Below are positions 9,357 to 13,656 of a DNA stretch of 60,435 bases, piece after piece; within the stretch, counting starts at the first letter, position 1, and every line of letters begins with the position of its first letter. Made by a program: the position numbers and the translations under genes. This stretch comes from Thermoanaerobacterales bacterium (lineage in GTDB: Bacteria > Bacillota > Desulfotomaculia > Desulfotomaculales > JASEER01): positions 1-60,435 of the forward strand of contig JASEER010000011.1 of assembly GCA_030019475.1 (NCBI GenBank), in the 5' to 3' direction. The notes beneath the pieces are model-generated. The model was not told where the DNA came from and ran no database searches. It was given only the letters and a program-made list of their open reading frames with translations.

Positions 9357-10191
9357 TGGCCGGGTGTCGCTGAGGAGGGTACGCCGGACCATCGCCGGGG
9401 CGGTCCCCGACCTGGTAGCGCTGCAGGAGGTCGACCGCCTGGTATGGCGGTCGGGTTTCGTCCCCCAAGACGCTTGGCTGGGCCTGTCGCTGAAAATGTA
9501 CCGGGCTTTCGGCCCTGCCATCCGGTGGAGGGGGTTTACGGCTTTCGGGAACGCCATCCTCAGCGGCCGGCCTCTTCTGGGTGCGGTGAACTACTCCCTT
9601 CCCGGCAAAGGGGAAAGGCGGGGCCTCCTGGTGGCCCGCCGGCCGGACTTCACGCTGGCCTGTACCCATCTGGGGCTGGACGCCGGGGAGCGCCGGGAAC
9701 AGGTGGCGGCGATCCTCGAGATCCTCCGCCGCTACGACGGGCCGCTCATCCTGGCCGGAGATTTTAACTGCCGCAGGGAAGACCCCGAGCTGGAGGAACT
9801 GCATTCTTTCCTGCGGGATACGGCGCCGGACGCCCTACCCTACACCTACCCGGCCGAGCGCCCCTCGGTGAAGGCTGATTACATCTTTGTTTCCCCGCAT
9901 TTTACCTGCCATAGCCTTTACGCCCCTCATTCGCCCGCATCGGATCACCTCCCACTGTGCGCCGACCTCGAGGTCGTGCTCCTGGAAGACTGCGGGCTTA
10001 TTGGTCAGAAGGCGTCACTGGGCGCTTTCCAGACCGAATTCCCTGGTGAGCTTGGTGAGAGCGCGTTTTTCGATACGGGAGACATAGCTCCGGGAAATAC
10101 CCAGCTTGCGGGCTATTTCCTGTTGGGTACGCTTAGCACCGTCGACCAGGCCGAAACGCAGGGCGATGACTTTCTTCTCCCGCCGCGTTAG
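9307..10191 (+). CDS. Endonuclease/exonuclease/phosphatase family protein
   Basis: This is a metal-dependent phosphoesterase of the EEP fold. Motifs in order are MTYNMRHGQG, the catalytic Glu in LVALQEVDR, THLGLD, LAGDFNCRRED, and the closing SDHLPLCADLEV, after which the domain should end (about residue 226). The frame does not stop there: it runs about 60 more residues and crosses 177 bases antisense to the end of sigK before the TAG at 10191. That tail has no EEP character. The ATG at 9307 is preceded by GGGGGAG. The substrate could be DNA, a lipid or an inositol phosphate and is not decidable. Confidence 0.8.
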   Translation: MRLRVMTYNMRHGQGIDGRVSLRRVRRTIAGAVPDLVALQEVDRLVWRSGFVPQDAWLGLSLKMYRAFGPAIRWRGFTAFGNAILSGRPLLGAVNYSLPGKGERRGLLVARRPDFTLACTHLGLDAGERREQVAAILEILRRYDGPLILAGDFNCRREDPELEELHSFLRDTAPDALPYTYPAERPSVKADYIFVSPHFTCHSLYAPHSPASDHLPLCADLEVVLLEDCGLIGQKASLGAFQTEFPGELGESAFFDTGDIAPGNTQLAGYFLLGTLSTVDQAETQGDDFLLPPR

Positions 10192-10380
10192 GTGTTTGAG
10201 TTTATTCCGCAGGCGGTCCTGCTCGAAAATGGTCTCCACGTGGGCCTCGACCGCCTCCGGTGCGGTTCCCAGCACATCGCTGAGAGTGATCTCATTGCCT
10301 TCCTTGTCAACCCCGATCGGGTCCTGGAGGGAGACCTCCGCCCGCGTCTTTTTCACGGCACGCAGGTGCATCAGGATTTC
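10015..10380 (-). CDS. sigK: Sigma-K factor, carboxy-terminal part (3' half of split sigK)
   Basis: This half carries sigma regions 3 and 4 of the mother-cell sporulation sigma factor. From the attachment site the frame reads EILMHLRAVKKTRAEVSLQD, then IGVDKEGNEITLSDVLG and the region 4 helix-turn-helix TQQEIARKLGISRSYVSRIE, ending EFGLESAQ. It matches sigma-K as I know it from Bacillus. There is no proper start: the first codon (GAA) is shared with the amino-terminal half 2.9 kb upstream, and the two join only if the intervening element is removed. The first in-frame ATG (10371) has no ribosome binding site. The stop is overlapped by the convergent EEP gene. Confidence 0.93.
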   Translation of the reverse strand, partial: EILMHLRAVKKTRAEVSLQDPIGVDKEGNEITLSDVLGTAPEAVEAHVETIFEQDRLRNKLKHLTRREKKVIALRFGLVDGAKRTQQEIARKLGISRSYVSRIEKRALTKLTREFGLESAQ

Positions 10381-11893
10381 CTTCTCGCTGACACCAGGTA
10401 AAATCTCCGCCCCGGGAGACCCTGACGTGGATGGTGACCTCCTCTCCGGGACCGATCAGGACGGCGTCAACCATGCGCTCTACTAACCGCCGTCGGTTTT
10501 CGGTTTCAAGGTCGTCCATGGCGTCAAGTATTCGGCAGGCGGCGGCAATGAGTTCCCGGTTGTTCCGGTGCAGGTTAAGGAGCCTGGCCTCGAGCCTTTT
10601 ACGTTCCTCGGCCAGGGCCGCGGTCCGGACCGACGTCTGCCGCAGGACGGTCTCCCACTCCCGGCGGTCACACAGGCCGGCGGCGAAGGCCCGGCTGGCG
10701 GCGGCACGCCGCTCTCCCAGGCGGCCCGTCTCCTTCTCCAGACGGGCCAGGGCGGCCTCGGGGTCTTCCGCCGGGAGGTCCCGAGTATCGCGGAGGACCT
10801 CCGCCAGGCACTCCGGGGCGTAGAGGGTTTCCTTCGTCCAGGCCCAGACCGCCCCTTCCAACAGGCCGGCGGACCAGCGCACCTTTTCCGGATGGGTCCC
10901 GGGGCAAAAGTAGTAGGCGTAGGGATGAGGGCGGGCGCGGACCTGTTGGGCCCGGGCGGGGGCCCCGCAGACGGCGCAGCGGACCAGTCCCTTGAGGAGG
11001 TAGGCCCGCCGGCTGCGCGACCCCTGCCGCGCCAGGCCGGCCGCGACCCGCTCCTGGGCGGCCTGCCAGCGGGCGGGATCCACCAGGGGCGGGACGGGCA
11101 CCGCGATCCATTGGTCCCGGTCGCGCAGGAGCGGGCGCCGCCTTTCTTCGGGGGGGCGGTAACGGTTAAGGGCCAGATCCTTGCAGTCATAACGGTTGGC
11201 CCAGAAGATGCCGGTGTAAACGGGGTTGGTCAGGATTTGCCGGATAACCTGGCGGTGCCAGTGCGGGGCGCTGCGTGGGGGGATTCCGAGGGCGTCCAGA
11301 CGGCGGGCAATGGCGACGTAACTCAGTCCGTCCCTGACAAACAGGTCGTAGATCGTCCGCACCACCGCGGACTCCGCCGGGTGGGGGACAAGCGTCGCCG
11401 CTTCCGGGTCGTAGGCGTAGCCGTAGGGGCGGTGGGCCTGCGGCATCCGCCCGGCGCGAGCCTTCTGGATACGGCCCGCCATGGTCCGTTCGCGGATTTT
11501 CTCCTTCTCATACTGGGCCACGGCCCCGCGGATGGCATAGAAAAGCTGCCCCTCCGGCGTGTTCCGCCACTCGAAGTTAACAAACTCCAGGGTGGCCCCG
11601 GAGCGCTCTATCTCCTCGGTGATGAGGAGTTGGTGGACAACGTTGCGGGCAAAGCGGTCCGGATCCAGAACCACGATCAGGTCGACCCCGCCCTGCCTTA
11701 GCGTCTCACGCAACCGGGTGAGGCCGGGCCTGGCCAGTACCGCCCCGCTGACCCCTTCGTCCCGGTAGACGGCTACTTCGGTGGCCCCGAGCCGCCGCGC
11801 GCGCTCTTCACAGGCGGCCGCCTGGTAGTCCAGGCTGTAGCCGCATTTCGCCTGTTCTTCCGATGAGACGCGGACGTAGATCGCCGCCCGCAC
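10307..11893 (-). CDS. Large serine recombinase of the sigK intervening element (SpoIVCA-like)
   Basis: This is a site-specific DNA recombinase expected to excise the element. About 528 residues: a resolvase catalytic domain starting MRAAIYVRVSSEEQA with the nucleophile Ser10, the conserved LDPDRFARN, a recombinase domain with GYAYDPE and ARRLDALGIPP, a zinc-ribbon-like RCAVCGAP with a later YYFCPGTH, then a charged coiled-coil region and a final VDAVLIGPGEEVTIHV. The GTG at 11893 gives the usual amino terminus; an in-frame TTG at 11974 has no ribosome binding site. The 3' end crosses the attachment site at 10379-10380 and ends inside sigK in another frame, so its last residues come from outside the element. 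Confidence 0.93.
   Translation of the reverse strand: MRAAIYVRVSSEEQAKCGYSLDYQAAACEERARRLGATEVAVYRDEGVSGAVLARPGLTRLRETLRQGGVDLIVVLDPDRFARNVVHQLLITEEIERSGATLEFVNFEWRNTPEGQLFYAIRGAVAQYEKEKIRERTMAGRIQKARAGRMPQAHRPYGYAYDPEAATLVPHPAESAVVRTIYDLFVRDGLSYVAIARRLDALGIPPRSAPHWHRQVIRQILTNPVYTGIFWANRYDCKDLALNRYRPPEERRRPLLRDRDQWIAVPVPPLVDPARWQAAQERVAAGLARQGSRSRRAYLLKGLVRCAVCGAPARAQQVRARPHPYAYYFCPGTHPEKVRWSAGLLEGAVWAWTKETLYAPECLAEVLRDTRDLPAEDPEAALARLEKETGRLGERRAAASRAFAAGLCDRREWETVLRQTSVRTAALAEERKRLEARLLNLHRNNRELIAAACRILDAMDDLETENRRRLVERMVDAVLIGPGEEVTIHVRVSRGGDFTWCQREGNPDAPACREKDAGGGLPPGPDRG
10367..10403 (-). other. Attachment site at the sigK 3' half (attR-like)
   Basis: On the minus strand the order is GTAAAA's complement (10403-10398), five bases, GTCAGCGAGAA plus G (10392-10381), the shared GA (10380-10379), then host sequence AATCCT and GATGCA (10378-10367). 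The element-side arm is an 11-base exact inverted copy of the arm at 13262-13272, and the outer GTAAAA box lies at the same five-base distance. The host-side GATGCA is the inverted partner of TGCATC at the other end. Confidence 0.82.
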
Positions 11894-11916
11894 GGTCCGG
11901 CCGCCACCCTCCGCCT

Positions 11917-12132
11917 TTACCGCCGGGGCGCCCCTTTGCGCCGGTATAACCCCCGCCGAAGGATCGTCAGCCAACGGGCCAGGTCGCGCAGGCAGGCCAG
12001 CTTGTGCCGCCGCTCCTCGCCCGGAGTGGCGACGGGGACAAGTCGCAGCCTGGCTGCCCGCCGCTGGGCCTTGGCGGCTTTGCCCCGGGACTTGGCGGGC
12101 GCTTTATTTCCTTTTTTAGGCACTGTTTTCAC
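11917..12132 (-). CDS. Small basic protein upstream of the recombinase
   Basis: This is a 71-residue, strongly basic protein, beginning MKTVPKKGNKAPAKSRGKAA and ending with an Arg/Lys-rich RRGLYRRKGAPRR. The GTG at 12132 is preceded by GGGGAG at good spacing, which favours it over an ATG six codons upstream. It ends 23 bases before the recombinase GTG in the same direction, so the two are probably co-transcribed. I recognise no family. Small basic proteins next to large serine recombinases are sometimes recombination directionality factors, so this is a candidate excision factor; a simple DNA-binding or spurious frame is also possible. Confidence 0.55.
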   Translation of the reverse strand: MKTVPKKGNKAPAKSRGKAAKAQRRAARLRLVPVATPGEERRHKLACLRDLARWLTILRRGLYRRKGAPRR

Positions 12133-12295
12133 GGGATCTCCCCTCCCCATTCCCGATGTATGGTCCGAACCTCCGTGGCTGACCAGGGATTTCATGGCAT
12201 CATGCCGGGGCTGCTATTCTTAGCCGGCGGGCAGGGGAATATATCCAAAAAGGGAGGGAGAAGACGGCCAACAGGAAAAGGGGGGGACGGCGGGC

Positions 12296-12412
12296 ATGCT
12301 GATCATGTCCTTTGCGGGGAAGGCGCGGGAGTTCAGGGTTTGGCTGAGCGCATGGCGGAGAACGATCGATCCGGAGGGGCGCACGGCGCTCTTCCGGCGC
12401 TGGGTGCACTAA
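12296..12412 (+). CDS. Possible 38-residue protein, unknown function
   Basis: This short plus-strand frame inside the sigK element starts MLIMSFAGKAREFRVWLSAW and ends TALFRRWVH. It is amphipathic and rich in Arg and Trp. GGGGGGACGG lies just upstream and may serve as ribosome binding site. It is the only plus-strand candidate in the element. No family is recognised, and chance cannot be ruled out at this length. Confidence 0.35.
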   Translation: MLIMSFAGKAREFRVWLSAWRRTIDPEGRTALFRRWVH

Positions 12413-12520
12413 AATGCGAAGTGAGATGTGGGGTGTGAGATGTAAGAACAGCGGATGGGAATTCGCGAAGCGAATTCCTTCAAGCCTCTCACTTCTGACT
12501 TCTCACTTCCCACCTCTCTT
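12413..12520. repeat. Purine-rich degenerate repeat folded around GGAATTCGC / GCGAATTCC
   Basis: The left part is made of units like GAAGTGAGATGT and GTGAGATGTAAG. The right part (CTCACTTCTGACTTCTCAC) is approximately their reverse complement. The centre is a perfect 9-bp palindrome GGAATTCGC-GAA-GCGAATTCC at about 12459-12480. It forms one long imperfect stem-loop inside the sigK element. Its style resembles the tract at 1318-1391. Confidence 0.55.
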
Positions 12521-12612
12521 ATGGCGGGCTCGGCTGACGGGCGTTAGCCCGGGGGCACTTGAGGAGGCGGGGGAGCGGCATGAGCAAGGGCGCCGCTAGC
12601 CGGCGTCCTTGC

Positions 12613-12747
12613 TCATTTTCCCTTACGGGTCTTCCCACCGCGGCGGCGCTCCTGTCGTTCGGCCGCCTGGCGGTGCTTGAACTCCAGGATCTCCAGGAAC
12701 CCCATCGGGCTGTTGTTGATCTTCGTACCGCGAGCCTTCTCGTCCAA
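12613..12747 (-). CDS. Small highly charged protein, unknown function
   Basis: This 44-residue frame starts MDEKARGTKINNSPMGFLEI and is followed by a charged segment (EFKHRQAAERQERRRGG) and a KTRKGK tail. The TTG at 12747 has AAAGGGGG upstream at good distance. It begins 27 bases after the ferredoxin gene in the same direction, so it is probably the distal gene of that transcript. I do not recognise the family. Composition and signals look genuine; a nucleic-acid or protein partner role is only a guess. Confidence 0.5.
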   Translation of the reverse strand: MDEKARGTKINNSPMGFLEILEFKHRQAAERQERRRGGKTRKGK

Positions 12748-12774
12748 GGCCGATGCCCCCTTTGACTTTCAAGG

Positions 12775-13164
12775 TTAGTGACCGTGGATGAGCGCCGGCA
12801 GGCAGCGCACGCAGGTCCAGACGCTTTCCCCCTGGCGGCGGATGGGAAGCAGGGCGCGGTCGTTGTCGTCGGCGCCACAGAAGGAGCAGCGGATGCGTGA
12901 GTCGCCCACGGCGTGTTCCCGCCGTTCGGCGAGGTGGCGCTCCACGGCCTTCTCGTCAAAGGCCGGCGCCTCTCTTTCCTCGATACTCAGGGCGCCGGTG
13001 GGGCAGACCCCCAGGCAGAATCCCGCCCCGTCGCAGAGTTCCTCGCGAATGACCTTGGCTTTTCCACCCCGCATCTCGATCGCGCCCTCGGCGCACGGGA
13101 TGACACACCGCCCGCAGCCGTTACAGAGTTCCTCATCAATGCGGACGATCTTCCGGCGTGCCAT
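12775..13164 (-). CDS. 4Fe-4S ferredoxin with carboxy-terminal zinc-ribbon-like motif
   Basis: This is a 129-residue cytosolic electron-transfer protein. The first cluster motif is complete ([11 protein letters not shown], residues 14-24). The second reads [12 protein letters not shown], with Ala where the second Cys is expected, so it may hold a 3Fe-4S or an altered cluster; similar versions occur in other anaerobes. The carboxy-terminal half adds CSFCGADDN and [12 protein letters not shown], a possible zinc or iron knuckle. The ATG at 13164 follows GGAGGGG. It is cargo of the sigK element, and a CRP/FNR-like palindrome lies upstream. Confidence 0.85.
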
Positions 13165-13192
13165 AACAGCTCCCCTCCTCCGGGTCCTGATA

Positions 13193-13239
13193 TTTATACT
13201 TTACCGGGGCGGTGCGGGGGATACTGTGACCGCGGTCAC
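13193..13239 (-). promoter_or_regulatory. Candidate CRP/FNR-type operator and promoter of the ferredoxin
   Basis: GTGACCGCGGTCAC (13226-13239) is a perfect 14-base palindrome; with flanking bases it gives TGTGA-N6-TCAC, the CRP/FNR-superfamily pattern. On the minus strand TATAAA (13198-13193) follows, about 34 bases from the palindrome centre. That distance would suit an activator binding near -45. The regulator is unknown. Confidence 0.45.
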
Positions 13240-13617
13240 GGCGGCCCCGTTTTTACTTACGGTCAGCGAGAACTCGTTTTCGATGCAGCGTGCAGCGTAG
13301 GTAGCCAGGCGCGCCCCCCGGATGGGGTTGAAGGTGTTAATGGCTTTGATCAAACCGATGGTACCGATAGAAATGAGGTCGTCCAGGTCCTCACCCGTGT
13401 TATCATACTTTTTTATTATGTGGGCCACCAAACGGAGATTGTGTTCGGTGAGGATGTTGCGCGCCTCCTCATCGCCGGCCAGCATCCGTTCCAGGCATTC
13501 CTTTTCTTCCTCCGGCGAGAGGGGCTGGGGGAAAGTGTTGTTGGTGATATACGAGAGGAGCAGCAAAAGGCCATTGATAACCGAGAGCATACCCAGGCTA
13601 AGGATAGCCGGTAGCAT
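13201..13617 (-). CDS. sigK: Sigma-K factor, amino-terminal part (5' half of split sigK)
   Basis: This half carries the hydrophobic pro-sequence ([20 protein letters not shown]), region 2.1 ([20 protein letters not shown]), [20 protein letters not shown] and the core-binding [10 protein letters not shown]. At Glu115 (position 13275) the sigma frame leaves sigK and runs 24 unrelated codons into the element before stopping at 13201. The ATG at 13617 has GGGAGGTG upstream. Unrearranged, it would make a truncated 139-residue protein without promoter-recognition region 4. The pro-sequence predicts membrane association until processing, as known for pro-sigma-K. Confidence 0.94.
13251..13287 (-). 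other. Attachment site at the sigK 5' half (attL-like)
   Basis: On the minus strand host sequence TGCATC and GAAAAC (13287-13276) precede the shared GA (13275-13274), then come element bases G plus TTCTCGCTGAC (13273-13262), five bases, and GTAAAA (13256-13251). This mirrors the site at 10367-10403. Combined, the host halves form TGCATC-N6-GA-N6-GATGCA, exactly symmetric about GA. Confidence 0.82.
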
Positions 13618-13648: not shown

Positions 13649-13656
13649 ATTATATG
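13649..13656 (-). promoter_or_regulatory. Candidate sporulation-type -10 of sigK
   Basis: CATATAAT on the minus strand resembles the sigma-E -10 consensus CATACAAT with one difference and lies 31 bases before the sigK ATG. No convincing -35 is seen 14 bases further up. sigK is known to be transcribed by sigma-E and sigma-K in other spore formers. Confidence 0.35.

Follow-up and report, generated by a model that had tools for sequence, protein, structure and literature searches.

A compact candidate skin-type element with its own large serine recombinase splits sigK in a Thermoanaerobacterales bacterium

Introduction

The skin element of Bacillus subtilis, a 48-kb insertion carrying skr and spoIVCA, splits sigK, which rejoins at a five-nucleotide core (PMC6957869; PMC13141910). 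Excision requires Skr, described as a 64-amino-acid (aa) protein whose gene shares 101 nt with spoIVCA (PMC6957869). In Clostridioides difficile, skinCd (CD1231/CD1234) is reported to need a small directionality factor made under sigma-E and SpoIIID (PMC5025042), and its chromosomal attachment site, attB, lies in a different region of sigK from that of B. subtilis (PMC6957869). The gin element, in gerE of Bacillus cereus ATCC10987, is described as a non-phage intervening element with a large serine recombinase (LSR) and a directionality factor (PMC5595907), while reduced SP-beta-like elements in spsM of Bacillus amyloliquefaciens are described as remnants that keep the recombinase, the one tested (FZB42) being excised only in sporulation (PMC4191935). 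Alicyclobacillus phage MMB025 also integrates in sigK (PMC13141910). The sigK elements in these papers are prophage-like or many-gene, hiding what excision requires. Here we describe a 60,435-nucleotide stretch of DNA (the window; contig JASEER010000011.1 of assembly GCA_030019475.1, from a Thermoanaerobacterales bacterium) in which a 2.9-kilobase insert with its own recombinase lies inside sigK, a gene needed to complete spores, in a genome that carries spore-formation genes. We consider it very likely that this segment of 2,895 bp is a compact skin-type intervening element, which its LSR and a Skr-like factor would excise to restore a 235-codon sigK in the mother cell. A literature search that mostly did not cover subscription papers returned no paper on sigK elements in this bacterial group.

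Results

A split sigK with palindromic attachment sites

The sigK gene of the window lies on the minus strand and is interrupted by exactly 2,895 bp, the spacing of two GA dinucleotides common to both boundaries (13275-13274 in the left attachment site, attL, and 10380-10379 in the right one, attR). The features of the split gene, and of the arms that would form the attachment site of the excised circle (attP), are as follows.

13276..13617, minus strand: sigK 5' part, 114 codons up to the crossover (profile score, third-position differences)
13274..13275, minus strand: GA crossover dinucleotide, attL (arm palindromy and placement test)
13248..13273, minus strand: P' arm of attP (19/26 inverted match; found independently as inverted repeat I3 of a repeat finder)
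10381..10406, minus strand: P arm of attP (19/26 inverted match; same pair in the repeat-finder listing, I3)
10379..10380, minus strand: GA crossover dinucleotide, attR (arm palindromy and placement test)
10015..10378, minus strand: sigK 3' part with stop codon (profile score, third-position differences)

The N-terminal half starts with ATG at 13617 and runs in frame to the crossover, after which 24 codons lead to a stop (an open reading frame, ORF, of 138 aa); the C-terminal half resumes with ...GA/A ATC CTG ATG, the slash following the dinucleotide, and ends at 10015. Joined at GA, the halves give 235 codons and read RCIENEILMHLRA. On TIGR02846 the joined protein reaches 348.6 bits, above the curated cut-off of 298.65, whereas the single halves score 173.5 and 163.6 bits, both below it. 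The insert breaks the sigK reading frame and leaves the remainder of the gene intact, as expected of a skin-type element. These results bear out the original prediction, which had placed two sigK halves in the same orientation about 2.9 kb apart, had joined them in frame at GA into a 235-codon protein and had proposed a skin-like element. It had also raised the possibilities of decaying halves and of a second gene. Both halves are open, with differences from eight relatives mainly at third codon positions, and on this comparison they look conserved. No intact second sigK was found in the draft genome of 87 contigs, in which the next best match (contig C7) is SigE by NCBIfam and others are weaker.

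The 26-nt inner flanks of the insert are inverted copies of each other at 19 of 26 positions, centred on GA, giving a palindromic attP. None of 200,000 random site pairs reached this match, and of the 961 ways to place the junction within 15 nt, three give 19 matches and only the one at GA keeps both a shared dinucleotide and the frame; the palindromy of the arms is therefore not due to chance. The common core of the att half-sites, GA only, rejoins the gene in frame. We take the core of B. subtilis skin to lie at the same position in sigK.

A large serine recombinase and a small upstream ORF

Next to the sigK 3' part the element carries two genes in tandem.

10307..11893, minus strand: large serine recombinase, 528 aa, start GTG at 11893 (longest ORF from TTG 11974), the last 72 nt lying in the sigK 3' half
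11917..12132, minus strand: skr-like small ORF, 71 aa, candidate directionality factor, GTG at 12132 and stop 24 nt upstream of the LSR start

The LSR matches PF00239 (Resolvase), PF07508 (Recombinase) and PF13408 (zinc-ribbon) above cut-off. It is the sole PF07508 match in the whole draft genome, where a gin-type element would have three recombinase genes. Its best phage match is the integrase of phage MMB025 (37% identity, 74% covered). Its frame continues for 72 nt beyond the core into the sigK 3' half, and the protein is predicted to have 528 residues when integrated and 511 after excision. The same overlap layout occurs in a related genome, G001 (526 aa, versus 521 aa at the inner junction of its element, see below), and in locus L070 the LSR frame likewise extends into sigK; the overlap may be mere economy of space. 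Searches of Pfam, NCBIfam and PHROGs with the 71-aa ORF gave nothing convincing (lowest E-values 0.5 and 0.3), and its predicted structure (mean predicted local distance difference test score of 66, one confident helix) is too weak for a fold search.

The locus resembles B. subtilis skin, as described, in the split sigK, the LSR inside the insert and the small ORF directly upstream of the LSR; the likeness of this ORF to skr is one of place and size. It differs in its size of 2.9 kb, in having no recognised phage genes and in the 24 nt that separate small ORF and LSR, against the 101-nt overlap given for skr. As reported for skinCd, the LSR lies immediately upstream of the sigK 3' part (PMC5025042), but skinCd has 19 genes and is prophage-like. 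The gin element, by its description, differs in its 31 genes, three recombinases and host gene gerE, and the reduced SP-beta elements in their host gene, spsM, and in being SP-beta remnants. MMB025 shares the sigK site, supplies the best-ranked phage match as its integrase and has an unannotated small ORF overlapping the integrase start; unlike the window element it is an infectious 105-kb phage, and its small ORF was likened to ours by eye, with a hidden Markov model (HMM) score of -0.4 bits.

Split sigK genes in related genomes

We searched 150 genomes, including the window's own, of which 139 had a sigK match at E<=1e-40 among the matches listed. Forty-eight were re-searched, namely the 42 genomes other than the window's own for which no full-length sigK was listed and six for which one was, so the count of splits is a lower bound. 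At least 23 of the 150, the window's own included, carry both sigK halves separated at this codon. In 15 of the 23 the split gene lies on one contig, the smallest element measuring 2.37 kb (G135) and the largest about 79 kb (G052). Twenty-one, again with the window's own, belong to the same order, G133 and G135 sharing only the phylum. Four further genomes showed the 5' part only (G004, G074, G087 and G112); G043, in which the 3' match is partial and about 100 kb distant, was left out of the 23. The splits suggest that repair of sigK by excision is common in these bacteria. An intact gene at this locus, which the original prediction suggested looking for in relatives, is also present, beside a MobAB-HAD-aroE block in 10 of 12 intact loci, although MobAB is only a short match in L124. 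In family f11, six genomes whose sigK is split or matched only in part (G010, G023, G043, G052, G061 and G070) have an extra near-full-length match of 43-48% besides one of 49-51%.

A further part of the prediction, that the element is a minimal version and possibly close to the smallest, stands as to small size and falls as to being uniquely the smallest. The element of G135 (L092, contig C4), with an LSR of another lineage and sigK split at the same codon, spans 2.37 kb, and we therefore rejected the window element as the smallest form; two more genomes have sigK elements of 3.2 and 3.3 kb.

Of 22 split loci tested, the window's among them, 20 have palindromic arms about GA (shuffle P<0.01). 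The exceptions are G052 and G135, the recombinase of the latter belonging to another lineage. This set leaves out half-only loci, the broken locus of G011 and G112, whose 5' part is identical in reading to that of G076. All 22 joined loci read ENEILM, partly by construction, the junction having been placed at that codon. An assembly artefact or chimera might be feared in a draft of 87 contigs, but we regard it as exceedingly improbable: the same split codon and an LSR recur, with palindromic arms, in other assemblies, including those of G006 and G133, each a single contig.

The LSR tree has 54 rows, 28 of them labelled sigK (by a sigK half in the locus, for G011 by its contigs and for MMB025 by its paper). 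It comes from a quick search and contains two very long phage rows and 15 rows of odd composition. The sigK label requires three changes on this tree, where shuffled labels need 18.4 and none of 500 shuffles is as low. The window LSR pairs with that of G001 (Shimodaira-Hasegawa-like approximate likelihood ratio test, 96) inside a nine-row all-sigK set (97), and a second all-sigK set holds 18 rows (support 95), MMB025 being separate from both. Most sigK LSRs thus fall into two clades.

The region upstream of 28 sigK LSR loci was inspected and 20 small ORFs were aligned, 19 of which beat all 200 shuffles in leave-one-out HMM tests. Eleven sigK-labelled LSR loci not used in the alignment were scored as well: seven exceeded 30 bits, L073 reached 15.5 bits, and L074, L078 and MMB025 stayed below 8. 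The G135 element has no clear partner ORF upstream of its LSR. For the partners tried, the family is without a convincing match in Pfam, NCBIfam and PHROGs, and annotation may overlook such ORFs.

Traces of excision in two relatives

In G001 (JACDOK010000012.1; L082/L069) the sigK element is present as an exact tandem copy with a period of 4,478 bp. The inner junction is identical to the attP predicted from attL and attR, with the shared core AACGA, and the outer flanks rejoin to IENEILM. This may be a true tandem or an assembler's reading of a circle; either would need recombination at the core. The cargo of this element includes an SNF transporter gene. In G011, one contig ends ...ATTGAAAAC and another starts GAAATTCTC; joined without overlap, they give a full sigK, and a contig numbered between the two (4,902 bp) carries an LSR. 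The contig breaks suggest a mixture of forms in the sequenced DNA, though other causes could apply.

Other contents of the element and its control

The remaining features within the element, and one upstream of sigK, are listed here.

12775..13164, minus strand: 4Fe-4S ferredoxin, 129 aa, single match at E<=1e-18 in the draft genome
12613..12747, minus strand: small ORF, 44 aa, start TTG (picked by inspection), a similar peptide lying beside ferredoxin in L069/L082 and L101
12412..12520, no strand assigned: host dispersed palindromic repeat, 26 matches in its own genome including itself, some on both strands
13649..13656, minus strand: CATATAAT, resembling a sigma-E -10 box and lying 39 nt before the start codon of sigK

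The prediction had counted five or six small genes. The annotation instead shows one large gene, the LSR, together with a ferredoxin of 129 aa and two small ORFs, of 71 and 44 aa, that are both likely genes. The order on the minus strand is sigK 5' part, ferredoxin, 44-aa ORF, host repeat, 71-aa ORF, LSR, sigK 3' part. No phage structural, lysis or replication genes were recognised when the LSR, ferredoxin and 71-aa ORF were compared with PHROGs and the 92-, 49- and 44-aa ORFs with Pfam, the remaining ORFs being only read. PHROG matches comprised integrase and invertase families for the LSR, one ferredoxin family and otherwise weak ones, and one scan of viral contigs gave three pattern matches, none a relative of the element.

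The ferredoxin and 44-aa ORF are probably passengers. The ferredoxin tree is without any starred branch and does not decide whether this gene is a sign of host capture. In L101 a ferredoxin gene lies just downstream of an intact sigK; in L101 and L122 the ferredoxin and/or small peptide of the window element lie just outside the intact gene, and similar small peptides occur near sigK in further relatives. The stretch 12400-12530, around the host repeat, folds with z = -4.8, and no Rfam match was obtained inside the element up to E 0.5. One copy of the repeat lies just after sigE on contig C7.

Of 31 sigK loci inspected, 27 have a CATA--AT box, which we take to be the sigma-E type consensus, in the 110 nt before the gene; in the window it lies at -39. 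The window's genome has SpoIIID above cut-off, SigE and further sigma-factor matches. Mother-cell timing is plausible, judged from the sigma-E-like box and the SpoIIID gene. As sigK, the ferredoxin, both small ORFs and the LSR all point in the same direction, read-through from the sigK promoter could drive the LSR; no promoter of its own was demonstrated, a sigma-70 promoter scan having found none.

Discussion

The anatomy of the locus, its att sites, the clean sigK halves, the single sigK found and the relatives with and without inserts are read directly from sequence. We propose that the LSR, helped by the small ORF just upstream as a Skr-like directionality factor, would recombine attL with attR at the central GA, releasing a circle with the palindromic attP and restoring the 235-codon sigK. 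If the elements of B. subtilis and C. difficile are a guide, this would happen in the mother cell under sigma-E and SpoIIID, so that the spore lineage would keep the element. Excision itself, its direction and its timing are all inferred.

Several observations weigh against this proposal. The window LSR is without the fourth zinc-ribbon cysteine, which is kept in 18 of 18 other readable ribbons (30 loci compared, 11 without a readable motif); a histidine nearby might stand in for it, which is a guess. The core common to attL and attR is GA only, against AACGA in G001, and no excised junction was seen for the window's own genome. The small ORF ends 24 nt before the LSR start, without overlap. 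In the leave-one-out test it scored only 4.6 bits, a value that 2 of 200 shuffles also reached. A second profile, from a post hoc choice of 12 partner ORFs of related LSRs that excluded the window, gave it 11.6 bits, which none of 1,000 shuffles reached. LSRs away from sigK are also preceded by such ORFs (L046, 47.7 bits; L059, 27.4; L042, 24.2), so the small ORF tracks the LSR family and not sigK alone. Finally, in four of the 23 genomes (G009, G019, G030 and G057) the split gene is accompanied by a full-length sigK-like gene with 58-64% identity to the query, and some split copies may therefore be dispensable.

The absent cysteine and these four genomes would also fit a dead insertion, with an inactive recombinase and a sigK lost for good, in a lineage that either makes spores without this gene or makes none; the host repeat inside the element and the ferredoxin of G001, read in two frames, point the same way. 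We think this unlikely, given two open sigK halves that vary chiefly at third codon positions, well-preserved att arms and an LSR frame that stays open over 528 codons and includes the N-terminal VRVS motif.

Another alternative is a selfish mobile element for which sigK is no more than a safe harbour, and which is excised at a low constant rate without developmental control. It could draw on the related LSRs with similar partner ORFs elsewhere, seemingly splitting a gene other than sigK, on the described use of sigK by a phage with a related integrase (PMC13141910) and on the lack of a demonstrated LSR promoter. The sigK LSRs nevertheless cluster on the tree, and the ORFs scanned included no recognisable gene for transfer or phage functions; we judge this reading quite improbable.

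For the compact skin-type element that we favour, the smallest working unit is likely attL, small ORF, LSR and attR. Judging from natural versions of 2.4-3.3 kb, the minimal set would be an LSR with two att sites, joined in most of them by a partner protein of about 50-70 aa. Its kind is known from skin, skinCd, gin and the reduced SP-beta elements; what differs here is the compactness, the lack of recognised phage genes, the partner-ORF family and the breadth among relatives. A bolder idea, which we offer as rather doubtful speculation, is a domesticated developmental DNA switch and not a mobile element: two recombinase lineages would long since have become specialists for a single sigK codon within this section of the Bacillota, paired with a family of uncatalogued tiny directionality proteins, and the rewriting of the LSR C terminus by excision (528 to 511 aa) could make the event one-way.

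Other insertion sites were also indicated. In G118 (contig C22), G101 (C18), G066 (C5) and G139 (C107) sigK matches stop near residue 148-158, perhaps at a second insertion site in sigK; the 3' part in G118 lies about 43 kb from its 5' match, and the G139 match ends at a contig end. Three sister-clade LSRs (L164, L165 and L166, in G006, G032 and G031) have the same kind of small partner ORF and directly precede the 3' 618-642 codons of a hexapeptide/phosphomannomutase-domain gene. In nearly all other listed relatives this gene is an open frame of about 780-910 codons, the intact copy starting nucleotidyltransferase-like, and no missing 5' part was seen within about 7 kb of the three LSRs. On its layout, this is apparently a second gene split by this recombinase family.

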